DNA from: Prevotella sp.
GTDB taxonomy: Bacteria > Bacteroidota > Bacteroidia > Bacteroidales > Bacteroidaceae
Direction of reading: 5' to 3'
Assembly (NCBI GenBank): GCA_017554105.1
Contig: JAFZIY010000016.1
Span: forward strand, 60,166 to 124,165
Length of the DNA stretch: 64,000 bases
Positions within the stretch are counted from its first letter, which is position 1, and each line of letters opens with the position of its first letter. Under the pieces are notes generated by a model, which worked only from the letters and a program-made list of their open reading frames with translations, was not told the origin of the DNA and searched no databases. The translations under genes and the position numbers were made by a program. Of the stretch, positions 24,815 through 39,447 are shown piece by piece.

Positions 24815-27655
24815 ATGAACTATCCTTTAATATCAGAATATGTCGAGGCCATTAAGTCAGCAGAAGACAACCTCAAGGAGTTGACAAATCTTCGACCAGT
24901 GCTTAGTGATGATGGTCAGCCACTGATGACGAGTGGCAATTTTGCTGTGGTATTCAAGATGCAGGATTTTGAAACGAGTAAATTCTATGCACTAAAATGC
25001 TTTATAAAAGATCAAGAAGGGTGAGAAGAGGCTTATCACCAGATAGCAGAAGAATTGAAGGATGTTGATTCACCTTATCTCGTCTCCATTAGTTATTTGG
25101 AAAAGGAGTTGTTTGTGGATTCTACACAAATAGAAGAAACAGAATTTCCTGTATTGCTGATGGATTGGGTGGAAGGCAAAACGCTCGATAAATATCTACG
25201 TGAAAACCTTGATGATAAGTATGCCCTCGAAATGCTGGCATATCGTTTTAGTCAATTGGCTCTATGGCTTATCCCCCAGCCCTTTGCTCATGGTGACTTA
25301 AAACCTGACAATATACTTGTTCGTGAAGATGGAACTCTCGTTCTCGTAGATTATGATGGTATGTATGTGCCAGCCATGAAGGGTCAAAAAACTCGTGAAA
25401 TTGGTTCACCAGATTTCCAACATCCAAATCGAACAGAGTTTCTTTTTAATGAGTATATTGATGATTTTTCTATAGCCACTATTTTTTTTTCATTAAATCA
25501 TATTGCAAAGACTCCTTCTTTATTAAACAAATATGGAGCATGTGATAGATTATTATTCTGTAAGGACGATTATTATAATTTTGAAGAATCCGAAATTATT
25601 CAATTTCTATATCCTGCAGATGACTTTATAGATTCTAACTATTCCATTTTGAAGTTAGCATTAGATGATGGTTATTTCAAAAACGTAGACTTATCGTGGT
25701 TCCGCATACCAAACAAGTCATTTGAATTAATCGACAAAACTATTCCCCAAAAAATTAAAGTTTTGTACAATGGTTCCTGCTTCAATATGATATATGTTGA
25801 AGGAGGATCCTTTTATAAGGGAGCACAAAATAATAACTCGAGATTGCCTAATTATGATTATGAAGCTGAGATTGATGAAGGTCCTGTTGAAAAATGTACA
25901 GTAGATGATTTTTGGATTTCTGAATCATTGATAACAATGGATATCTGGCCTTGGTTTGGAGATAATCCAGACGGCGTTCACCCATATAATATAAGAGAAC
26001 GTCGTGATGATGATAATAAGAATGCTGTATATGGTGTTAGTTATAAAGATTGTGTTGAGTTTATACGGGGATTAAGTAAGGCGACAAATGTCAAATTTGA
26101 TTTTCCAACTGAAGTAGAATGGGAATACGCCGCTCGTGGTGGAAAATATTCAAAAGGCTACAAGTATTCCGGTTCAGATTCACTAGGGGAAATCGCATTA
26201 TATGGTAAAGAAACTGACGGGTATAGTTTTCCTTTGTGTAAAGTAAGAACAAAAAAACCGAATGAGCTAGGCATTTATGATATGTCAGGAGGGCTTTATG
26301 AATGGTGCAAGAATGATTATTCCCCAGAAGACTTTATCGAATTTGACAAGAGCTTAATACCATACTTATTAGACAATCCTATAATACATGTAAAAAGAGG
26401 AGGTTGCATTACAAGCAATGCACATGAATGTCGAATAACAAATAGAAGAAGAGACAACTTCTTTAAAATCGCAGCAGACGAAGAGCGTCGGACTTATTAT
26501 GAGGGAGGAGATGATTATTATCCATCCGTCTATTGGTGGCAGGTTGGACTACGATTAGTTGCTCATAATATAGATTTAAATTCTATAGAGAATAATGAGA
26601 TTAAGTCTTTCTCTAGCGGAATATCAGAAGCTGAAAGAAATAGTAAGATTATTGATGCTTTCGGAGCCGAATACTCAGATGATAAATTAATCAAAGTTCC
26701 TGATGATATTGTAGAATATTCTGTAAAAGAAGGAACAAGAATTGTTACACGTGATATTTTTCATGATTTAAGGGAGAAAAAAATCCAGAATGTGTATTTC
26801 CCCTTATCTCTAAAGGTAATTGGGTCGAATGCCTTTTGGGAATGCAAGTATTTACAGGATCTTACGATTCCTGGTGAAGTGTTTCGAATTGGAGTTGGAG
26901 CTTTTACTAGCTGCGAATCCCTATCTAGGATTGTATTGCCATCTTCTATTAAATATATAGAGAATGGTGCATTCTCCCACTGCTACTCTTTACGTGAGAT
27001 AACAATTCCTGACGGTGTTGATACTTTGGAAAATGATATATTCTCTTGTTGTAGTAATTTAGAAGAGGTGATAATACCGAGTAGTATCATTACAATTTGT
27101 GAGGATGTTTTTTGGAACTGTACAAAACTAAGGTCAATAACAATTCCTGAAAATGTTAAAGAGATAAAAAGAAATCCTTTTAGAGGTAGTGGTATAGAGG
27201 AAGTTATTTGTGAGTCACCAAACTATGTTTTTGAGAATGGACTATTAATGACTGCTGATAGAAAAGAACTAATAGCATGTTTAACAAACAAAAGGTATGT
27301 TTTAGTTCCTTCAACCATTAAAGTGATTCGTGATTATGCTTTTAATGGATGCAAGAGCATAAAGCAAATATTTTTACCTGATGGCCTTACTGATATAATG
27401 GACTCAGCTATTAGTGATTGTGCCTCTCTCTCTGAGTTAACAATTCCAAGTTCCGTAAGAGTGATTCATAGAGGTTTTTTGTCTGAATGCGGGAATTTTA
27501 AACGACTTATAATTCAAAGTAAAGATGTGTGGTTTGAAGATAATACATCATTTTATAAGTCAGAATCTATATCTCAGATTATTGTTCCCCAGGAAGTAAA
27601 GGAATCTTTTTGCAAAAATTTTCCGAATTATTCAAATATTATGGAGGATTATTGA
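24815..27655 (+). pseudogene. Protein kinase-FGE-sulfatase-LRR fusion interrupted by an in-frame TGA
   Basis: 946-codon frame. Residues 38-300 are a Ser/Thr kinase: GNFAVVFKM glycine loop, YALKCF with Lys61, catalytic HGDLKPDNIL (from residue 159; HRD is HGD) and metal DYDG at 179-182. Residues about 320-600 are a formylglycine-generating-enzyme-type (SUMF1) domain: FPTEVEWEYAARGG, LGIYDMSGGLYEWC, KRGGC, VGLRLV. From about 650 come BspA-type LRR_5 repeats (IGSNAFWECKYLQDLTIP and similar). Codon 70 at 25022-25024 is TGA; the frame reads on with kinase-like sequence on both sides. Restart at 25055 would lack the glycine loop and Lys61. A real mutation, readthrough or a sequencing error are all possible. 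First gene of the operon; the next begins 2 bases after its stop. Confidence 0.8.
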
Positions 27656-27656
27656 A

Positions 27657-28460
27657 ATGGCAAGATTTATTTTTGACAATATTGAAGGCGAAAATATTAT
27701 TCTTGAGTTTAAGTGTAAGAAATGCTTCTCACTTACAAAGACAGGATTGTTAGATGTTCCAGAGATGGACTTAGATAACTTAACTACTGCAAAACGTCTG
27801 TTTAAACATGAATGTCAATGTGGAGCCTGTTATTCAATAGAAATATATAATGGATTATACAATAGTTATGGAATAATTCAAGGGTTAGATAGTGAAGAGG
27901 AAGATGTTTTCGTACATGAAATACCAGATGTGCAGTATAATAAAGATACTATTTATGTAGACACGATAAACACTTTTTATAAAATAGAGTCTATAATAAA
28001 CTCCGTCGATAGTTTCGGTGATGAAGAAAGGTCTTTTGTTTATGGTTTGTTGTTTACTAATCTAATAACAGTTTTCGACTCTTTTATTAAGATTTATACA
28101 GAGCCAATAATCCTATCAGATAACGTATTAGTTGAAAGGTTTTCTAATTCCTTTGATATAAGAAATGGGGATATTGAGGAAAAAAAGCAAAAAATTAGAC
28201 ATTTTTATAGTAAAAGATCATTCCAGACAATTGCGACACAAAAGAAGTTGTTTAAGGAGGTCTTTAACATAGAAGTTGATATTGATGATAGAATAAAGCA
28301 ATATGTCGCAATTAGAGATGTTATTATTCATAGAAATGCTATTGATCCCGGAGGATATATCCAAAAGATTAATAAGAATCAATTATTAGCAGCATTGGAG
28401 GTTGTTAAATCTCATGTTAGTGTTATTAATATGGCTTTGTTTAATTATGAAACTGATTAA
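27657..28460 (+). CDS. Zinc-ribbon plus HEPN-like protein
   Basis: 267 residues. The N-terminal part has a treble of cysteines typical of a zinc ribbon: C20xxC23 and C53xC55xxC58. The C-terminal half is all helical and ends with VAIRDVIIHRNAI, giving R220-x4-H225, the R-[N/D/H]-x3-H motif of HEPN ribonuclease domains, preceded by a FDSFIK helix as in RiboL-PSP/MAE_28990-type HEPN. HEPN proteins are common RNase toxins or effectors of conflict systems. The family call is from motif only; RNase activity is inferred. Second gene of the operon. Confidence 0.65.
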   Translation: MARFIFDNIEGENIILEFKCKKCFSLTKTGLLDVPEMDLDNLTTAKRLFKHECQCGACYSIEIYNGLYNSYGIIQGLDSEEEDVFVHEIPDVQYNKDTIYVDTINTFYKIESIINSVDSFGDEERSFVYGLLFTNLITVFDSFIKIYTEPIILSDNVLVERFSNSFDIRNGDIEEKKQKIRHFYSKRSFQTIATQKKLFKEVFNIEVDIDDRIKQYVAIRDVIIHRNAIDPGGYIQKINKNQLLAALEVVKSHVSVINMALFNYETD

Positions 28461-28510
28461 AAAGAATGTATGCTAAAATGGATTCAACAATATAACATAA
28501 AAGAAGGACC

Positions 28511-29164
28511 ATGATTGTAATAGAATCAAAACGAAAAAAGTCTGCCACGATATATAATAAATACCCAAATGCAATTTTAGCAGATGTGACGAGTGGTGCG
28601 AAAGATGGGCTTGTGAAGTTTAGCCCTTTTTATCCGCATGGTGGTATACCTGTTCCATTTAGTGAGGGTTATACTGCAACATGTGTGGAGGCTGTATGGC
28701 AAGGTTTGAAAGTTTTTAAAGGGCATGATGTTGACATCTCACTTTTCCAGAATGACACGATGAAAGGGATTAAACGGACTGCTCGACGTTTTGGAAAGCC
28801 ATTAGGACATCGAAAAGGTGTACATGGTAAAGAACTATTAAGTTATATTGAGGCTCGCAAGCAGATATATATTCCTACTTACAAGTGGGTATTGGAAAAT
28901 AAGGTGGTAGATATCATTGAGCGATTAAGAGAAGCAAGCAAAGCAAAGACTATTGTATTGTTAGATTACGATACGAACGACGATGTTGAGAATGTGAAAA
29001 AACCACTGTCCCATGCATCACTGATAAAGGCATACGTGGAAGGGATATATCCTTATGGGGATAAAATGGAATCAAAAGCAAAGGAAACAAGGAAGAGACA
29101 CAATATTGTTGAGCAAGATTTGTTTAATCAGATAGAGGAGGTCGATTATGGAAAAGAAAAGTAA
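28511..29164 (+). CDS. DUF6939-like protein
   Basis: 217 residues, no signal peptide or membrane helix. The segment ATIYNKYPNAILADVTS, then KFSPFYPHGGIPVPFS, VEAVWQGLKVF and a RRFGKPLGHRKG stretch match, from memory, the DUF6939 family of unknown function, which I recall in bacteria near ADP-ribosylation genes. Conserved Ser, Pro-His and Arg residues suggest a nucleotide or nucleic-acid ligand, but this is a guess. A good ribosome site (AGAAGGA) precedes the ATG. Its end overlaps the DarT-vWA gene by 17 bases. Confidence 0.6.
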   Translation: MIVIESKRKKSATIYNKYPNAILADVTSGAKDGLVKFSPFYPHGGIPVPFSEGYTATCVEAVWQGLKVFKGHDVDISLFQNDTMKGIKRTARRFGKPLGHRKGVHGKELLSYIEARKQIYIPTYKWVLENKVVDIIERLREASKAKTIVLLDYDTNDDVENVKKPLSHASLIKAYVEGIYPYGDKMESKAKETRKRHNIVEQDLFNQIEEVDYGKEK

Positions 29165-30596
29165 TTGGCAGGAGTATAAGACTATCCTTGACCAGCATGG
29201 GATCGTGAAACTCTATCACTTTACAGATAGGGATAACCTTGAGTCAATCATTAAAAATGGTGGATTGTATTCATGGGGCGATTGCGAGGACAGAGGTATC
29301 AAGATTGCGAAGCCTGGAGGTGGTCTTTTGTCAAGAGACCTTGACAGAAGAGACCACTTACAGCATTATGTTAGGTTGAGTTTCACCACACAGCATCCTA
29401 TGATGTATGTGGCTATGCAGGATGGTCGTTTGTCGAATCCTGTTATTCTAGAAATAGATCCGGAAGTAATATTTTGGCAAGACAGCAAGTATGCCAATAT
29501 GAATGCTACGAGGTTGGGAGCACATAAAGGAGGTACATTGGATGATTTCAAAATGATTCACTTCCAATCGATAAAGGCTCGTAAGCATTTTGATTTGCCA
29601 GAAGAAGAGCAGCCATTTTTTCAGGCTGAAGTGTTGGTAAAGAACTTCATTCCACTGGAGTATATCAAGAATATCGGCAACTTTGGTATCCCAGTTCCTT
29701 CAAAACCAATGGCCCTGCAAATAAAGAATCCATATACTGCTCAAATTACAAGGAATACTCCCACCGCATTTATCTTTATGGTAGACCAATCTATCTCGAT
29801 GAGTCGGAAGATTTTTTTCAAAGGAGAAATTATTTCCATGGCAGATGCTGTGGCAAGAATTGTAAATAATCAGATTAATGAGTTGGTTTATAGGTGTGTC
29901 AAAACGAATGAGGTCAGACATTACTATGACATTGCTGTAATTGGCTATGGTGATGATGCATGTTATGGTTGGAATGGGACATTGGCTGGTCGTGATTTCG
30001 TTTCTCCGGAAGAACTAAAAAACAATCCCTACAAAAAGATAATTGTTAAAGAGGAAAAACGAACTCGAAAGGGAGTACAATTGAAAGAGATAGAGAAAGT
30101 CCAGTGGTTAATACCCGTTGCTGTTGGGAAGTATACGCGTGCCGATAAGGCATTTAACTTAGCAAAGGTTTTATTGGATAAATGGATGAAAGAACATCAT
30201 GAAAAGGATTGTTATCCTCCAACCATTATAAATATTACTGATGGTGCTTTCAATGGAATCCCCAATCCTCGTGAAGTCAACACACAACTTGCAAACGAAC
30301 TAAAAGCCATGTTTACGAATGATGGTAATGTACTACTATGGAATATTCATATAACGCCAAATGACCAAGAACAGATTCTTTTACCTATTAGCAAGAGTGA
30401 GTTAAAAGATGACAAGTACTCCGAATGGCTTTACGATATGTCGAGTTTGCTCCCTTCAAGATATAATCAACCCATTGGTGATTTGCGTGGCGATGCAGAG
30501 AATACAAGGCACGTAGCTATGGCAACCAATACGGATTTATCAACTCTGATACAATTAATGGATATTGGAACTCCCACAAATATTAGTCCCCAATGA
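29148..30596 (+). CDS. DarT-like ADP-ribosyltransferase fused to a vWA domain
   Basis: 482 residues. Residues 18-180 fit the DarT (DUF4433) family, which attaches ADP-ribose from NAD to thymidine in DNA: KLYHFTDRDNLESIIKNGGL (His24, Thr26), arginines at 63-68, HPMMYVAMQDG, and QAEVLV with Glu161, at the position expected for the catalytic Glu. From about 205 follows a von Willebrand A domain with a MIDAS motif D213-Q-S215-I-S217, then DIAVIGYGDD and PPTIINITDG. The fusion suggests a protein-protein or assembly role. The base-level target (DNA, RNA or protein) cannot be told from sequence. It overlaps the next gene, PP2C, by 4 bases. Confidence 0.78.
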   Translation: MEKKSNWQEYKTILDQHGIVKLYHFTDRDNLESIIKNGGLYSWGDCEDRGIKIAKPGGGLLSRDLDRRDHLQHYVRLSFTTQHPMMYVAMQDGRLSNPVILEIDPEVIFWQDSKYANMNATRLGAHKGGTLDDFKMIHFQSIKARKHFDLPEEEQPFFQAEVLVKNFIPLEYIKNIGNFGIPVPSKPMALQIKNPYTAQITRNTPTAFIFMVDQSISMSRKIFFKGEIISMADAVARIVNNQINELVYRCVKTNEVRHYYDIAVIGYGDDACYGWNGTLAGRDFVSPEELKNNPYKKIIVKEEKRTRKGVQLKEIEKVQWLIPVAVGKYTRADKAFNLAKVLLDKWMKEHHEKDCYPPTIINITDGAFNGIPNPREVNTQLANELKAMFTNDGNVLLWNIHITPNDQEQILLPISKSELKDDKYSEWLYDMSSLLPSRYNQPIGDLRGDAENTRHVAMATNTDLSTLIQLMDIGTPTNISPQ

Positions 30597-31375
30597 GAGC
30601 ATTATCATTAGCAAAGTTTGAAGAAGGAATCATCAATGAGGATGCAACCATCGCCAAAGAGAACGTAATAGCGGTGTCGGATGGTGCTGGTGGGGGAGGC
30701 GTGTTCGCTGAATGTTGGTCTCGGTATTTGGTAGAAAAACTGCCAGATAAACCAATTAAGAACTATAAGTCATTCGATAAATGGATAGAAGGAATATGGG
30801 AACCTTTCTATAACGAATGTGAGGATAAGGCTAAGTCTGTTGGCGGAATGTTCTTGAATAAGTTCTATGATGAGGGTTCTTTTGCTACTTTAGTAGCTGT
30901 ATGGAAAAATGGGCAATGGGTGAGTTACGGTGACAGTGTGGCTTTTTGTTACAATAAGAAAACTGGTGAGTTGCATCATTCATTCACTTGTTTGCCCGAT
31001 TTTAATAATGCTCCATATTTGATTAACTGCAAAGACCCATTAGATGAGAAGGGATTCAGATGCGGAAAGTTTAAGATAACGAAAGATTGTATTGTATTTG
31101 TGGCTAGTGATACACTGGCTCATTATATATTAATGATGTATGAAGTGGCTCATTCTGATAATTATACGGAGGAGTTGAAAGAGACAGTCAATGCTAAGAC
31201 AAAGAACAGCAATTTCGTTAATACTGCTATGGCATTGACAAGTGTTGACTTTGGGAAAGATGTGATTCGGAAATTGAAGAACTGCTATCAGTCTTTTCTT
31301 CTTAGAAATCATATTAAGGGCTTGAGGAAGAAAGGCCTAATAGGTCATGACGATTATTCAATTGCAATAATGTAG
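30593..31375 (+). CDS. PP2C-family protein phosphatase
   Basis: 260 residues, metal-dependent Ser/Thr phosphatase. Motifs: INEDA (residues 14-18), AVSDGAGGGG (Asp30), GSFATLVAVW, SYGDSVAF, VASDTLAHYI (Asp173) and a terminal HDDYSIAI with Asp253/254. The fourth motif has SDT rather than the usual SDG. Overlap with the DarT-vWA gene by 4 bases and the kinase at the head of the operon suggest it reverses phosphorylation of the same target. Kinase, PP2C and vWA together recall the TerY-P triad described by Anantharaman, Iyer and Aravind. Confidence 0.8.
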   Translation: MRALSLAKFEEGIINEDATIAKENVIAVSDGAGGGGVFAECWSRYLVEKLPDKPIKNYKSFDKWIEGIWEPFYNECEDKAKSVGGMFLNKFYDEGSFATLVAVWKNGQWVSYGDSVAFCYNKKTGELHHSFTCLPDFNNAPYLINCKDPLDEKGFRCGKFKITKDCIVFVASDTLAHYILMMYEVAHSDNYTEELKETVNAKTKNSNFVNTAMALTSVDFGKDVIRKLKNCYQSFLLRNHIKGLRKKGLIGHDDYSIAIM

Positions 31376-31378
31376 AAT

Positions 31379-32620
31379 ATGGAAGAGAAAAAGCATTTGG
31401 GTTATACCCCCGAGTATATAGACAGACTACTACCAAATCAAATCTTTGTTTTTGGTAGTAACGTATTAGGTTATCATACAGGAGGAGCCTCTGGTACGGC
31501 TCGTAAGAGATTTGGTGCCGTATGGGGACAAGCAGAAGGAATACAAGGACAAAGCTATGCCATACCTGTAGATTTTGGCAAGGGCAATGTGACTCCAGAC
31601 ATACAACCTTATGTCGACAGATTTATTGTCTATGCAAAAGCACATCCAGAGAATCACTTTTTGGTAACTCGTGTGGGCTGTGGCATAGCGGGGTTCACAG
31701 ACAAAGAGATGGCAGAGCACTTTCGTGATGCTTTGACGATGAATAACATAAGCCTTCCTCGTAGCTTTGTAAATGCCTTGCAGAATGATGCTGAACAAGA
31801 TTTTGATTTAGAAAGATTTGTAAAAGCACAAGAAGGGCATTGTTCATACAATGAGGCACTGGATGAAATCAAGTCTGGTCGTAAATATGGACATTGGATT
31901 TGGTATGTATTTCCGCAAATCAAAGGACTAGGGCATAGCTATTACTCAGAATATTATGGTATCAGTGGTGAGGATGAGGCTCGTGCCTATTTGAATCATC
32001 ATATACTTGGGACGAGGCTTAGAGAGATTACAAAAGCACTTCTAGATTTAGAGGGACATTCTGCCTATTCTATCTTGGGATGTCCTGATGACATAAAAGT
32101 ACGATCATGTATGACTCTCTTTGATTTGGTATCCCCTAATGATATTTTTGCTGATGTCCTCAACAAGTATTATGATGGTATACGTTGCCAGAAAACTACA
32201 ATGAGAATAGGGATTAGGCAGGCAAAACCAAAATTAAAAAAACTTACCATCACCAAACATTACCATATAATGTTAGGTGATAAGGAGATAAAAATGGAGC
32301 CGATTGTTAAGGCCGTATATCTGCTGTTCTTGAGACATCCCGAGGGAATTGTCTTTAAGTCACTCCCTGACTATCGTGAAGAAATAACAAGTATCTATTC
32401 TGATTTGAAACCGCATGGAATGAATGATAGAGTTATCAAAAGTATAGAGGATGTAACAAATCCATTACTCAATTCCATTAACGAGAAATGTGCGCGTATC
32501 CGTTCTTTATTTGCGAATGAATTCGACGAGTCTCTTGCCAAGAATTATTATGTGACAGGAGAGCGTGGAGAGGCAAAAAGAATAACTCTTTCTCGCGATA
32601 TGGTAACTTGGGAGAAGTAG
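31379..32620 (+). CDS. Macro-like (A1S_2505-type)/DUF1810 fusion protein
   Basis: 413 residues in three parts. Residues 20-130 match the phage A1S_2505-like macro-domain group: IFVFGSNVLGYHTGGASGTAR, here cited by its start IFVFGSN, with QAEGIQGQSYAIPV and TRVGCGIAGF; macro domains bind or remove ADP-ribose. Residues 144-275 are DUF1810: FVKAQEG, GRKYGHWIWYVFPQIKGLGHS, ILGCPDDIKVRSCMTLF. Residues about 290-413 are helical with a winged-helix look (KAVYLLFLRHPEGIVFKSL). In this operon a role in reading or removing ADP-ribose marks made by DarT is plausible; this is inference. Last gene of the operon. Confidence 0.72.
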   Translation: MEEKKHLGYTPEYIDRLLPNQIFVFGSNVLGYHTGGASGTARKRFGAVWGQAEGIQGQSYAIPVDFGKGNVTPDIQPYVDRFIVYAKAHPENHFLVTRVGCGIAGFTDKEMAEHFRDALTMNNISLPRSFVNALQNDAEQDFDLERFVKAQEGHCSYNEALDEIKSGRKYGHWIWYVFPQIKGLGHSYYSEYYGISGEDEARAYLNHHILGTRLREITKALLDLEGHSAYSILGCPDDIKVRSCMTLFDLVSPNDIFADVLNKYYDGIRCQKTTMRIGIRQAKPKLKKLTITKHYHIMLGDKEIKMEPIVKAVYLLFLRHPEGIVFKSLPDYREEITSIYSDLKPHGMNDRVIKSIEDVTNPLLNSINEKCARIRSLFANEFDESLAKNYYVTGERGEAKRITLSRDMVTWEK

Positions 32621-32758: not shown

Positions 32759-33292
32759 TTACCAGGTCCAGATGGATGTGTTGCTATTATTACTCTGCTG
32801 TTGGGTATTGCGGTTGCCGAAATAGTCAGTAGAGGTGGTTGACGTTCCTTGCGTCTGACCATACGGGTTCCGATAGGTGGTCGTTGTGTTGCCGAAGTAA
32901 TCGGTAGATGTGGTTGATGAACCTGTGGAACGACCGTAGGAATCGGTATAGGTTGTATTGGTGTTTCCAAAATAATCGGTGCTAGATGTCGCTGTTCCTG
33001 TTGTGTTGCCATAACTGTCGCGATGTGTTGTCGTTGTGTTTCCGAAGTAGTCGGTTGTTGTGGTGGATGTCCCTGTCACTTGTCCATACTGATTTCGATG
33101 GGTTGTTTCCTGGTTGCCGAAGTAGTCAGTTGTCGTTGTGGATGTTCCTGTTATCTGTCCATACTGATTCCGATGGGTTGTTTCCTGATTACCGAAATAG
33201 TCGGTTGTTGTCGTAGATGTTCCCACGTTGTACTGTGCGTTTGCTGTGATGGCAAAAACGATTGCCAAAACTGTTATTATAATTTTTTTCAT
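32759..33292 (-). CDS. Exported protein of six 25-residue tandem repeats
   Basis: 177 residues: signal peptide (MKKIIITVLAIVFAITANA, cleavage before Q), then six copies of a Thr/Ser/Asn/Gly-rich 25-residue unit centred on TDYFGN with RNQYGQ variants, ending in NTSIWTW. DNA shows the matching 75-bp period. No catalytic residues; a cell-surface or periplasmic structural or adhesive role is possible. It follows the gene at 33331-33750 on the same strand after 38 bases, so the two are likely co-transcribed. Confidence 0.75.
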   Translation of the reverse strand: MKKIIITVLAIVFAITANAQYNVGTSTTTTDYFGNQETTHRNQYGQITGTSTTTTDYFGNQETTHRNQYGQVTGTSTTTTDYFGNTTTTHRDSYGNTTGTATSSTDYFGNTNTTYTDSYGRSTGSSTTSTDYFGNTTTTYRNPYGQTQGTSTTSTDYFGNRNTQQQSNNSNTSIWTW

Positions 33293-33970: not shown

Positions 33971-34756
33971 ATGAACGCAACGATTATATCTGGTTATACT
34001 AAGTTGGACAAGTATGTTCCGAACTGGAGCAAAACTCGTACCGTTATTGTTGCAGGGAGACCTGCTTTAGGGAAAACAGCTTTTATGGTATCGCTGGCAA
34101 GAAGCATTGCAATAGATCAAAATATTCCGTTAGCTTTATTCTCTATGGAAGAGTCTGAGAAGAAATTGAAATGTCGCTTCATTAGTAACATCTGCGAGTT
34201 GGATTATAGAAAGATAGACAACAATACTTTGAATGAAGAAGAAAAGGCGATATACAAAATAGGACTCGAGAAATTCGATGATAGTCCTGTCATTATAGAG
34301 GATTCTCCCAGATTGTTAGTTTCTGATTTTTCATCAAAAGCAAAGCATGCAGTATTTGATTTAGGTGCCAAAATTATTTTTATCGATTACCTCCAATTAA
34401 TGAACATCGGTCAGGATTTAATAAGTGAACGAAAGGAGTTTTCTTCCATCATGCATTCTATTAGGGAAGTTGCAGAAGAATTGGATGTTCCTATTATTGT
34501 TAATACATATCTGCCTGATAGAAAGAGATATTCAAGAATTGTTCCTTGTTTGGCTGATATAGAGAGGGTTGGTAATATCGGAAGAGAATCTGATGTGATA
34601 TTGTTATTACATCGTCCAGAGTACTACTGTGTTGTAAGCGATATGCCGAAGTACAAAGGTATTGCCAAAATAATAGTGGCCAAAAACATCTATGGAGAGA
34701 AGGGTAGTTTCCTATTGGGGTTTATGCCTGAATTCGGTCGCTTTTATAACCTATAA
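33971..34756 (+). CDS. DnaB-C-like RecA-fold ATPase (intact active site)
   Basis: 261 residues, equal to the C-terminal helicase domain of replicative DnaB without the N-terminal domain. Walker A is GRPALGKT (29-36), the catalytic Glu is in FSMEES (Glu60), and Walker B is IIFIDYLQLM (Asp139); IERVGNIGRESDVILLLHRPEYY holds the arginine-finger region. It lacks the primase-binding N-domain, so it is not a normal replicative helicase. It may act as a small DNA- or protein-remodelling ATPase, perhaps with the related gene 177 bases downstream. Confidence 0.8.
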   Translation: MNATIISGYTKLDKYVPNWSKTRTVIVAGRPALGKTAFMVSLARSIAIDQNIPLALFSMEESEKKLKCRFISNICELDYRKIDNNTLNEEEKAIYKIGLEKFDDSPVIIEDSPRLLVSDFSSKAKHAVFDLGAKIIFIDYLQLMNIGQDLISERKEFSSIMHSIREVAEELDVPIIVNTYLPDRKRYSRIVPCLADIERVGNIGRESDVILLLHRPEYYCVVSDMPKYKGIAKIIVAKNIYGEKGSFLLGFMPEFGRFYNL

Positions 34757-34932: not shown

Positions 34933-36003
34933 ATGAATGAGATGATGAATGACGACTATATCAACATACGGGAGATGTTGAGTGATTGCTTATCTGATGT
35001 ACGGGTAAGGGCTGCAAAAAAAGGTGCGATGGGAATCCCCACGGGGTTTCAGCCTTTAGACGATTTGATAGGTGGCTTCGAGAAAGGAAAAGTATATGTG
35101 ATTGGTGGAAGACCTTGCATGGGAAAGGAAGAATTCATGCTGTCAATGATGATAAACATCATTTTAGAAAGCAAATTGCCCGTCTTGGCTTTCTCTACGA
35201 ATCACATGAAGTCTGACTATGTACAAAGACTTTTGGCCATGTACTGTGACATACCTGTTATGCACTTGTTTCAAGGCAATATGGAAATCCAAGAGTGGAA
35301 AAGGCTGGATAAGCGATTAGGTGATTTGCTTGATGCACCGCTTTTTATGCATGACAGTTTGGATTTGCCACTTAACGAATTGACTGAAACTGCACGGAAT
35401 TGTATCAGAGAAAAGGATATACATATCATCTTCATAGATTGCCTGCAAATGATAGATTTTACCAATGAAGGCGATAATCCTTCTGATAGAGTTGCAAAGG
35501 TGATGCTTTCGTTAAAGCAATTTGCTCATCTAAACAAAGTGCCTATTATAGTAGGATCTATGTTGAGTAGAGGAATAGAATACCGAGATGGGTTTGAAGG
35601 CAAGCGGCCTCAATTGATGGATTTAATGAACTCCAGTTTTATCGAAGGCCTTGCTGATGTTATCATGATGGTGCATCGCCCCGAGTATTACCACTTCTAT
35701 CAAGATGAAATAGGACGAGACCTGTGTGGGCGGATAGAAATCATTGTGAAAAAGAATGCCTTAAAGCCTTTGGACAGCATTTTCCTGAACTATAATGATA
35801 AAACGGGTGTAGTTTGCGTACGGAAGAAACGTAAAAGTACTAATGATGAAAATTTTGACATCATAAAACCCGATGTGGTTTGCGTACGGAAAAATAGTAA
35901 AAGTACTTTAAAGCCAATCAGTCTGAAGGATTTGAATTCAGATAATGAAGCTGTGAAAAAGTTAATCAAGGCTTTTGACCTTGAAGAAGAAATACCATTT
36001 TAA
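34933..36003 (+). CDS. DnaB-C-like protein with degenerate ATPase site
   Basis: 356 residues. The domain is entered by GIPTGFQPLDDLIGGFEKG, the usual start of the DnaB C-domain. Walker A reads GRPCMGKE (59-66): the essential Thr/Ser is Glu66. The catalytic Glu motif reads FSTNHM, with Asn90 in the Glu place. Walker B (IDCLQM) is kept. So it probably binds but does not hydrolyse ATP, or has lost both. A C-terminal tail (from about 290) contains a duplicated VVCVRK..KST segment. Likely a structural partner of the intact paralogue upstream; this is inferred. Confidence 0.78.
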   Translation: MNEMMNDDYINIREMLSDCLSDVRVRAAKKGAMGIPTGFQPLDDLIGGFEKGKVYVIGGRPCMGKEEFMLSMMINIILESKLPVLAFSTNHMKSDYVQRLLAMYCDIPVMHLFQGNMEIQEWKRLDKRLGDLLDAPLFMHDSLDLPLNELTETARNCIREKDIHIIFIDCLQMIDFTNEGDNPSDRVAKVMLSLKQFAHLNKVPIIVGSMLSRGIEYRDGFEGKRPQLMDLMNSSFIEGLADVIMMVHRPEYYHFYQDEIGRDLCGRIEIIVKKNALKPLDSIFLNYNDKTGVVCVRKKRKSTNDENFDIIKPDVVCVRKNSKSTLKPISLKDLNSDNEAVKKLIKAFDLEEEIPF

Positions 36004-37579: not shown

Positions 37580-38380
37580 ATGAAAAATTATCTGATCAGC
37601 GAGGCTATAGGAGATATTGCAGGGAGCGTTTATGAAGGAAAGGATAAGCGCATAAAGGATTATGATAAGGTGAAGTTGTTTGGTACAGACGCTCATTTTA
37701 CGGATGATACTGTGCTGACATTCGCTTGTGCAGAGGCTTTTATCGACCATCTCGATATGACAATGAACCTATGGAAATGTGCTAACGAGCATCGCCATGC
37801 AGGGTTTAGCAAAAGGTTTAAAGAATGGATGGCAAGTCATAAACCACAGCCGTACCGTAGTCTTGGCAACGGTTCTGCCATGCGTTGCTCTTCGGCAGGA
37901 TGGTTGGCGAAGACTGAAGAGGAATGCGTGGGAATGGCAACAGAGACAGCAATGCCGACGCACAACCACCCTGAGAGTATTAAGGGCGCGGTGGCAACGG
38001 CACTTGCAATATTCCATCTAAAGAACGGTAAGGATAAGGACTTCGTTCGTGAGAATGTACTGAATGAGTATTATCCAGAGTGGGCGAACAAGAAATACGA
38101 TGAGTTCCATGATGAATATTCTTTTTATTCGACATGTGCCGGAACCGTAGGTCCTGCTATTATATGTTTCTTGGAATCGAAGGACTATGTTGACTGCATA
38201 AAACTCGCCATTTCTCTTGGTGGCGATGCCGACACGCTTGCTGCTATTGCTGGTCCTATGGCATACGCTTATTATCGGTCGATGCCTGACACGCTCGTCT
38301 ATCAGGCTCTGAAGAAACTGCCTGACTGGATGGTTGATGTGAGTGAGCGTTTTGATGATGTGGTAAACAGAATGATATAA
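37580..38380 (+). CDS. ADP-ribosylglycohydrolase (DraG/ARH family), first copy
   Basis: 266 residues. Removes ADP-ribose from modified substrates using two Mg ions. Motifs: ISEAIGDIAGS, FTDDTVLT (Asp42, Asp43), LGNGSAMR, and SLGGDADTLAAIAG (214-219), all metal- or ribose-binding. The C-terminus KLPDWMVDVSERFDDVV is duplicated in a relic at 39451-39528. The acceptor (protein, DNA or RNA) is not given by the sequence. A DarT-type transferase in the same island makes reversal of its marks plausible. Confidence 0.88.
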   Translation: MKNYLISEAIGDIAGSVYEGKDKRIKDYDKVKLFGTDAHFTDDTVLTFACAEAFIDHLDMTMNLWKCANEHRHAGFSKRFKEWMASHKPQPYRSLGNGSAMRCSSAGWLAKTEEECVGMATETAMPTHNHPESIKGAVATALAIFHLKNGKDKDFVRENVLNEYYPEWANKKYDEFHDEYSFYSTCAGTVGPAIICFLESKDYVDCIKLAISLGGDADTLAAIAGPMAYAYYRSMPDTLVYQALKKLPDWMVDVSERFDDVVNRMI

Positions 38381-38490
38381 TGAAATGACTATTTGGCAAA
38401 GAACTATTATATTTTCGGATGGAGAGGACAAGAAAAGAAAATATCTTTAGACAGAAATCTGGTTGAATGGGAAAGTAACTTGTGAATATT

Positions 38491-39447
38491 ATGGAAACAA
38501 AGATTATTAAGACTTTTGAAGACAAACTGAAAGGAACCATATATGGTCAGGCAATAGGTGATGCGCTCGGTCTTGGCACGGAGGGTATGACCGATGAGGA
38601 TATGGCATGGAAATATCCAAATGGAATAAGGCATTATGACGAGATATTTCAGGACAGGCACCGTAAAAGATGGAAGAAAGGGGACTGGACTGATGACACC
38701 GACATGATGTTATGCATAGCAAATGCTGTCATAAAGGACAAGGGCGTGAACCTTAATACAATTGCTCAGAACTTTAAGGACTGGGCAGATGGGGATCCAA
38801 TGGGTATCGGGCTGAATACATATAAAGTATTAAGTATAGGCGATTATGTGAAAAAGCCCCTTGAGGTATCAAAACTTGTATGGGAAATGAGCCGTAAGCA
38901 GGCTGCAGCAAATGGAGGACTGATGAGAACATCGGTTGTCGGACTTTTCCCGAAAGATGTTGAGGTATGTGCAGAGAATATATGCCGGCTCACTCATTAT
39001 GACCCACGTTGTGTCGGTTCATGTGTCATTGTTTCTAATCTGATACATGCATTGGTGTATGATTTGCCCAAACCTACATATCACCAGATGATAGATATCG
39101 GTCGCAAATACGACGAACGTATTACAGAGTTTATAGATTTGTCGTTGAATACAGATATTCGTGCATTGGAGTTACAGGATGAAGATTCTGTTGGTTATAC
39201 GCTAAAAACACTGGCTGCTGGTCTTTGGGCGTATTGGAATGCTACATCTTTTGAAGAAGGACTGCTATCTGTAGTCTGTGCTGGTGGCGATGCAGATACA
39301 AATGCTGCTGTCGCATGTGCCATACTTGGTGCGAAGTATGGTTTCTCTTCGATTCCGCAGGAGTATGTCGAGGGGTTGATTTATAGAGCACAACTTGAAG
39401 ATGTTGTGTCTGAATTATTAAGGATAGTGGGAGATGCTAATGGTTAA
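38491..39447 (+). CDS. ADP-ribosylglycohydrolase (DraG/ARH family), second copy
   Basis: 318 residues. Motifs: IYGQAIGDALGLGTEGM, DWTDDTDMML with the metal-binding Thr-Asp-Asp-Thr, NGGLMRTS, and CAGGDADTNAAVACAILG. All catalytic acids are kept. It is clearly a different subgroup from the first copy, not a recent duplicate. The ATG at 38491 is preferred over a GTG at 38482. It is followed at once by a relic of the other copy's C-terminus. Confidence 0.88.
   Translation: METKIIKTFEDKLKGTIYGQAIGDALGLGTEGMTDEDMAWKYPNGIRHYDEIFQDRHRKRWKKGDWTDDTDMMLCIANAVIKDKGVNLNTIAQNFKDWADGDPMGIGLNTYKVLSIGDYVKKPLEVSKLVWEMSRKQAAANGGLMRTSVVGLFPKDVEVCAENICRLTHYDPRCVGSCVIVSNLIHALVYDLPKPTYHQMIDIGRKYDERITEFIDLSLNTDIRALELQDEDSVGYTLKTLAAGLWAYWNATSFEEGLLSVVCAGGDADTNAAVACAILGAKYGFSSIPQEYVEGLIYRAQLEDVVSELLRIVGDANG

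Follow-up and report, generated by a model that had tools for sequence, protein, structure and literature searches.

The DNA analysed here (the window) is a 64,000-nucleotide stretch of a Prevotella sp. draft genome (3.12 Mb in 32 contigs), in which positions 24815-32620 are filled by six genes, all on the + strand in the open reading frame (ORF) list. From 5' to 3' these encode a Ser/Thr kinase with a long C-terminal tail, a 267-residue protein with a HEPN-like motif, DUF6939, a DarT domain fused to a TerY-type von Willebrand factor A (vWA) domain (DarT.vWA), a PP2C-type phosphatase, and a protein joining a macro-like part to DUF1810 (macro-DUF1810); the genes are spaced by a 1-base gap, a 50-base gap, a 17-base overlap, a 4-base overlap and a 3-base gap. 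An earlier note on this DNA had described these six same-strand genes, and that description is confirmed only in part: gene number, strand and the last four spacing values stand, whereas the first gap had been given as 2 bases. The interpretation offered there, phosphorylation controlling a nucleic-acid ADP-ribosyltransferase with an RNase effector, is likewise supported in part, in that a TerY-P-like kinase/vWA/PP2C set is joined to DarT and conserved together with it; overlooked were DUF6939 as a probable antitoxin, the exchangeable kinase array, and the interruption of the window's kinase gene. We are somewhat inclined to read the locus as a phospho-signalling module of TerY-P-like type, its vWA scaffold being fused to a DarT1-type ADP-ribosyltransferase, with a NADAR-fold antitoxin encoded upstream and exchangeable sensor kinases. 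Computation gives the parts, their recurring order, intact DarT, vWA and PP2C motifs, the predicted NADAR fold and the kinase array; from these we infer phospho-gating and a role in phage defence.

The first half of the fourth gene encodes a DarT ADP-ribosyltransferase domain (29148..29717, +; PF14487, E = 6.1e-34), and the second half a TerY-type vWA domain (29733..30593, +; PADLOC TerY, E = 7.1e-48). Four DarT residues do not vary across 29 aligned sequences (the window plus 28 of 29 relatives): the catalytic Glu161, Asn119 at the position that contacts the base, Ser78 and Met85. The metal ion-dependent adhesion site residues of the vWA domain (D213, S215, S217 and D365) are likewise invariant in 29 aligned sequences. 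Glu161 aligns with the E152 position, which is Ala in the crystallised mutant chain. On this evidence the 29148-30596 product is predicted to be an ADP-ribosyltransferase. The best relative of its DarT part in the PDB is E. coli C7 DarT1 (8baq, E = 6.6e-9), followed by 7omu (a 406-residue macro-domain-containing chain, E = 1.8e-5) and 7omv (E = 1.5e-3), which we take to be Thermus DarT2. Judged by sequence, the DarT part is closer to the guanine-modifying DarT1 than to DarT2, and the thymidine-type DarT proposed earlier was therefore probably wrong in detail. Asn119 lines up with N104, the residue that contacts guanine, but Asn occupies this position in 7omu too, so that it is not diagnostic of guanine and base specificity is not proven. 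DarT matches also occur beside NADAR-type genes elsewhere: among four of 15 plasmid records matching the DarT protein, one is a Parabacteroides DarT/DUF6939 pair, two have a PF22397 (DarT1-NADAR) partner and one carries no annotation, and in another genome of the same phylum (G144) a DarT match lies beside a PF22397 gene. Because NADARs act on guanosine in RNA too (PMC11833690; this and the papers below are cited from excerpts), RNA remains a possible substrate.

The DarT.vWA gene overlaps that of the PP2C-type phosphatase (30593..31375, +; PADLOC PP2C, E = 3.6e-10; no Pfam match), in which D30, D114, D173, D253 and D254 are invariant in 20/20 aligned sequences. A pattern scan of one genome per species (84,980 species), which reaches close relatives of DarT.vWA only, returned 29 loci. 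The DarT-vWA fusion is present in all of them, the locus search having used the whole fusion and one record (L046) being cut inside the vWA domain, and the order DUF6939 - DarT.vWA - PP2C is kept wherever it is visible. Upstream, DUF6939 is found in 28/28 evaluable relatives (L036 offers too little sequence), within 200 bases in 26; a YhcG-type nuclease gene is inserted between DUF6939 and DarT in L026 and L032, and in L043 the DUF6939 copy adjoining DarT is a 112-residue fragment. Downstream, PP2C is next to DarT.vWA in 28/28 evaluable relatives (the L046 record stops short of it), and the 4-base overlap is kept in 26. That this core order recurs in other species argues that the arrangement is not due to chance. 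Its closest relatives are Bacteroidales, mostly rumen Prevotella-like bacteria, and two records labelled Lachnospiraceae and Clostridia may be binning errors. The halves of the fusion appear to have been shuffled between loci: DarT is 94% identical and vWA 61% between L022 and L045, 89% and 62% between the window and L045, and, the other way round, 72% and 93% between L027 and L029.

DUF6939 (28511..29164, +; PF22075, E = 3.3e-77) is predicted to act as an ADP-ribosyl hydrolase and as the antitoxin to the DarT part. Pfam lists it as a family of unknown function, and our literature search returned no paper naming it. The Geobacter lovleyi NADAR, a DarT1 antitoxin, stood first and well apart from other matches both when 177,635 PDB sequences were searched by profile and when a confident DUF6939 model was submitted to Foldseek. 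E60 and K67, invariant in 28/28 aligned DUF6939 proteins, align with NADAR E88 and K95 (C7 numbering, E-x6-K), residues with catalytic roles (PMC11543638), and the invariant D152 falls near the third NADAR acidic residue, D171, in one MAFFT alignment. The window's DUF6939 has no match to the Pfam NADAR models PF08719 and PF22397 up to E 1. From the profile and structure searches we predict that DUF6939 is a NADAR-fold protein, and regard it as the probable antitoxin of the DarT part.

DUF6939 also occurs outside the operon. It is present in 4/395 genomes of the phylum and was found in Bacteroidota, an actinomycete, a proteobacterium plasmid and jumbo phages. A closer group comprises 12 non-operon loci (L055-L057, L071-L075 and L095-L098, the L074 and L075 proteins being the same), in 3 of which DUF6939 follows a vWA-less DarT gene (L055; L096, a Parabacteroides plasmid; and L071, a viral contig). 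The stand-alone DarT relatives at L055:7795-8748 and L096:7739-8998 have a long stretch N-terminal to the DarT domain, which in L055 is by eye hydrophobic and then highly charged, probably a coiled coil. In L056 and L057, DUF6939 is clustered with genes for ADP-ribosylglycohydrolase, NADAR, calcineurin-like phosphoesterase, KptA and macro proteins (L056 by Pfam; its Sir2-like and extra copies, and all of L057, read by eye); these clusters (L056:4420-15748 and L057:3210-15956) adjoin a nicotinamide phosphoribosyltransferase-like gene and look like NAD/ADP-ribose repair islands. In L095, DUF6939 has as divergent neighbours an annotated ADP-ribosylglycohydrolase gene, a NUDIX gene and two DUF1810 genes, and on a small Bartonella plasmid (L098:933-6549) an Rhs gene and a 97-residue gene are followed by DUF6939, where an immunity gene would stand. 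Phage records with DUF6939 relatives number 49 (Erwinia 39, Dickeya 8, uncultured 2), and divergent relatives occur in Erwinia and Dickeya jumbo phages and large environmental phage contigs (L099, L100, L101 and L107-L121). Of three divergent phage relatives scanned, two match PF22397 below the cut-off (E = 0.014 and 0.075) and one has no match; a counter-defence function of these phage proteins is possible.

The signalling input varies between loci. All 21 relatives with at least 6 kb of upstream sequence have at least one same-strand upstream kinase (one in 6, two in 10, three in 4 and four in 1), and L037 has one kinase downstream. In 44 aligned kinases the residues H79, G80, D81, K83, N86, D99, D101 and G102 (HGDLKPDN/DYDG) are invariant, and mean pairwise identity, taken in 20-residue blocks along one reference, is 0.59-0.84 over residues 1-220, 0.43-0.44 over residues 221-260 and mostly 0.17-0.25 beyond, with values up to 0.39 in tail blocks of thin coverage. 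The tails carry, by Pfam and among 25 of 29 families, LRR_5 in 22 proteins, Sel1 in 10, WG in 7 and FGE in 1, the last being the window kinase. The kinases thus form an exchangeable array with a common catalytic part and unrelated tails. Kinases of the same locus (mean identity 0.67, 25 pairs) are not more alike than those of different loci (0.66, 878 pairs) and so give no sign of recent local duplication. A separate kinase class (L022:6200-9358, L023:6105-9317, L025:6073-9243, L027:6182-9355 and L040:4607-7840), whose kinase start is 46-49% identical to the window's, has an extended N-terminal region, which in L022 contains WG repeats according to Pfam, and, by eye, hydrophobic stretches in the tail; it adjoins DUF6939 in 4/5 cases.

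The presence of at least two kinases in 15/21 of these relatives recalls the kinase-kinase-phosphatase defence module KKP, whose toxic kinases are released when a phage inhibits the phosphatase (PMC11341870), and raises the alternative that the kinases and PP2C are a toxin-antitoxin pair of their own, DarT.vWA/DUF6939 being a second, separately controlled pair in the same operon. Both the fusion of DarT to the triad's vWA in 29/29 relatives and the 4-base PP2C overlap described above argue instead for one machine, and we consider two independent pairs rather improbable.

For the phospho-signalling module with a DarT effector, the likeliest working, drawn by analogy, is that of a phospho-gated DarT with DUF6939 as eraser. 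The kinase tails (LRR, Sel1, WG, or FGE plus LRR in the window) would sense an invader or damage signal, and the activated kinase would phosphorylate DarT.vWA, or a partner protein that the vWA domain holds. Phosphorylation might then free DarT from DUF6939, whereupon DarT would ADP-ribosylate guanine in single-stranded DNA and replication would stop; PP2C would reset the switch, DUF6939 would remove the ADP-ribose mark, and the macro-DUF1810 protein, where present, could remove or read residual ADP-ribose. Published work supplies the pieces of this analogy: Pseudomonas is protected from phage by TerY-P (PMC10889362), DarT1 and NADAR make up a toxin-antitoxin pair acting on guanine (PMC11543638), and a kinase/PP2C balance can work as a phage-triggered toxin-antitoxin switch (PMC11341870). 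A bolder version, which we put forward tentatively and do not ourselves hold to be probable, is an immune-receptor array: sensor kinases able to replace one another, each bearing a different repeat-type receptor tail, would converge on one fixed phospho-gated DNA ADP-ribosylating effector, with toxin, scaffold and sensors shuffled independently between strains, and DUF6939 would be a new NADAR subfamily serving both as eraser and as a jumbo-phage counter-defence gene.

Several observations weigh against a phospho-gated DarT with a NADAR-fold antitoxin. The Foldseek match of DUF6939 falls short of the E 0.001 threshold, and by the tool's own warning a middling Z can reflect a common arrangement in helical proteins; hhalign comparisons with NADAR profiles are weak (probability 0.1%, 5% and 9%), and the D171 equivalent is not placed with certainty. 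On the toxin side, DarT1 R52 and D54 are not matched across all 29 aligned sequences, the stretch aligned with them being variable (SRDLDRRD vs SRQLDSGR), as might be expected if the DarT part were an inactive ADP-ribose/NAD sensor of the triad and not an enzyme. Against such a sensor stand the four invariant DarT residues and the probable hydrolase antitoxin upstream in every evaluable relative (the L043 copy being the fragment), and we give it very little credence.

Nor do the flanks resemble a defence island: in 80 downstream proteins, no PADLOC family matches more than one protein (among 25 of 32 families), and most of the Pfam families are of a housekeeping or generic type, Zeta_toxin occurring in 2 proteins (among 25 of 100 families). 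Such ordinary-looking flanks would suit a stress or DNA-repair regulator, in which reversible guanine ADP-ribosylation would answer envelope or metabolic signals and not phage; TerY-P has been linked to tellurite resistance, with a part in metal sensing proposed for it (PMC11090510), and in some bacteria growth is regulated by DarT (PMC12170906). Such a regulator would, however, hardly be expected to be so sporadic (of 395 phylum genomes, 20 match some part of DarT.vWA and only the window's own has both domains) or to have relatives of its DUF6939 in phages, and the variable kinase tails and DarT/vWA mosaicism suggest an arms race. We therefore think this alternative unlikely, though less so than two independent toxin-antitoxin pairs.

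The last point against the phospho-gated reading is the state of the window's own kinase gene, in which the frame 24815-27652 contains a single stop, a TGA at 25022-25024, that leaves the kinase in two pieces, analysed separately here. The first (24815..25024, +; 69 codons ending at the in-frame TGA) covers, as judged by eye, the part of the N-lobe with the lysine, matches positions 1-67 of PADLOC STK_OB (E = 2.6e-5) and has a homologous start in relatives. The second (25025..27655, +; ORF listed from 25055) carries HGDLKPDN and DYDG and matches STK_OB positions 82-264 of 562 (E = 3.1e-38); there the match stops, the remainder being an FGE-sulfatase domain (25784..26452, +; PF03781, E = 1e-26, residues 244-466) and BspA-type leucine-rich repeats (LRR_5; 26612..27652, +; PF13306, E = 1.9e-63, in three stretches, the best at residues 612-727). 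The FGE and LRR_5 parts of the kinase-FGE-LRR gene described earlier are upheld by Pfam, while the unbroken frame is not, the TGA having been missed. In 39/39 listed relative kinases the counterparts of both pieces lie within one open frame, and a search of the window's own genome with the kinase piece found no second such kinase. With the TGA in the sole such kinase gene found, the signal input of the window copy is probably broken as written, and the DarT/DUF6939 pair may have been left without input in a decaying locus. Yet the other five genes are open, the DarT, vWA, PP2C and DUF6939 motifs are conserved, and this is one draft assembly, in which sequencing error or recoding is possible; for the window copy we regard decay as about as likely as not.

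The two remaining genes are less constant. The 267-residue gene (27657..28460, +) is HEPN-like by eye only, through an RxxxxH motif (RDVIIH); RxxxxH defines the HEPN motif. It has no Pfam, NCBIfam or PADLOC match up to E 1, only weak and uninformative PHROG matches, and is present in 0/29 related loci. Genes between the kinases and DarT vary (20 of 32 listed interval genes were scanned, short or near-duplicate ones being left out), with AlbA_2 (Schlafen) in 3/20, YhcG nuclease in 2/20, and trypsin-like, AAA_13, SprT-like and RhuM in 1/20 each, and the HEPN candidate is one of these varied genes. The macro-DUF1810 gene comprises an A1S_2505 N-terminal domain (31379..31783, +; NCBIfam NF049995, A1S_2505_Nterm, E = 5.1e-37; phrog_2072), DUF1810 (31802..32203, +; PF08837, E = 1.7e-52; solved relative 2jek, RV1873, E = 5e-35) and a C-terminal domain (32216..32620, +) of unknown family that other genes in related loci carry separately. 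The A1S_2505 part has no Pfam Macro match, and its macro-like character comes from hhalign (probability 78.7%, P = 1.7e-5; 10 sequences vs 5 macro proteins). The gene follows PP2C in 14/28 evaluable relatives and is thus optional. The co-occurrence across genomes that the earlier note had proposed consequently holds for kinase, DUF6939, DarT.vWA and PP2C, fails for the HEPN gene, which is not supported as a system component, and extends to macro-DUF1810 only as an optional part.

Around the cassette, the window holds two ADP-ribosylglycohydrolase genes about 5 kb downstream (37580-38380 and 38482-39447, +; PF03747, E = 2.3e-29 and 1.6e-62); in the protein clustering, no cluster containing them reached four loci. 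Two adjoining genes (33971-34756 and 34933-36003, +) have a DnaB_C helicase domain with no other DnaB part recognised, and 32759-33292 (-) encodes a secreted-looking protein of near-identical repeats around TSTTTTDYFGN. FtsZ-type genes occur near the cassette in some relatives (L028:17881-19212 by eye, in a cluster spanning five loci; Tubulin/FtsZ in 4/80 downstream proteins scanned), perhaps as a shared insertion neighbourhood.

Each part belongs to a known kind. What appears new is the DarT-vWA fusion, the array of sensor kinases and the placing of DUF6939 among the NADARs, and the literature searched contained no paper describing this gene combination. We know of no earlier case of protein phosphorylation controlling a nucleic-acid ADP-ribosylating toxin. 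Such control, if true, would link the TerY-P and DarTG lines of immunity in a gene cluster of gut and rumen bacteria, DUF6939, a family without a function, would gain a testable one, and the kinase array would offer a natural experiment on wiring many sensors to one effector.

Among known systems, KKP shares the multiple Ser/Thr kinases with PP2C and a toxin-antitoxin logic, while the excerpt describes no vWA, DarT or NADAR part and its kinase genes were filtered to 900-1300 bp (PMC11341870). CoCoNuT types II and III-A likewise join TerY-P, as a control cassette, to other effectors, there a nuclease/helicase-type restriction complex as against a putative DNA ADP-ribosyltransferase here (PMC11090510). 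GAP1-N2-type GTPase systems also attach a kinase-PP2C-vWA trio to another conflict system, with the vWA stand-alone and no DarT named in the excerpt (PMC7159879). Closest are TerY-P and DarTG1. Like TerY-P, the locus has a TerY vWA, PP2C and a Ser/Thr kinase gene (in the window interrupted by the TGA) in one operon, matched by PADLOC TerY, PP2C and STK_OB; here, however, the vWA is fused to DarT, there are several kinases and an added NADAR-fold gene, and by sequence profiles the kinase tail is LRR, Sel1, WG or FGE and not a zinc ribbon/OB fold. Like DarTG1, it has a DarT1-like ADP-ribosyltransferase adjoining a predicted NADAR-fold protein, but the toxin is fused to a vWA scaffold (in the window and 29/29 relatives) and not stand-alone, and the probable antitoxin, whose gene comes first, is of the divergent DUF6939 family, which the Pfam NADAR models miss in the window protein. 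With neither the zinc ribbon/OB tail nor a separate toxin present, we call the system TerY-P-like and DarTG1-like, and a member of neither.

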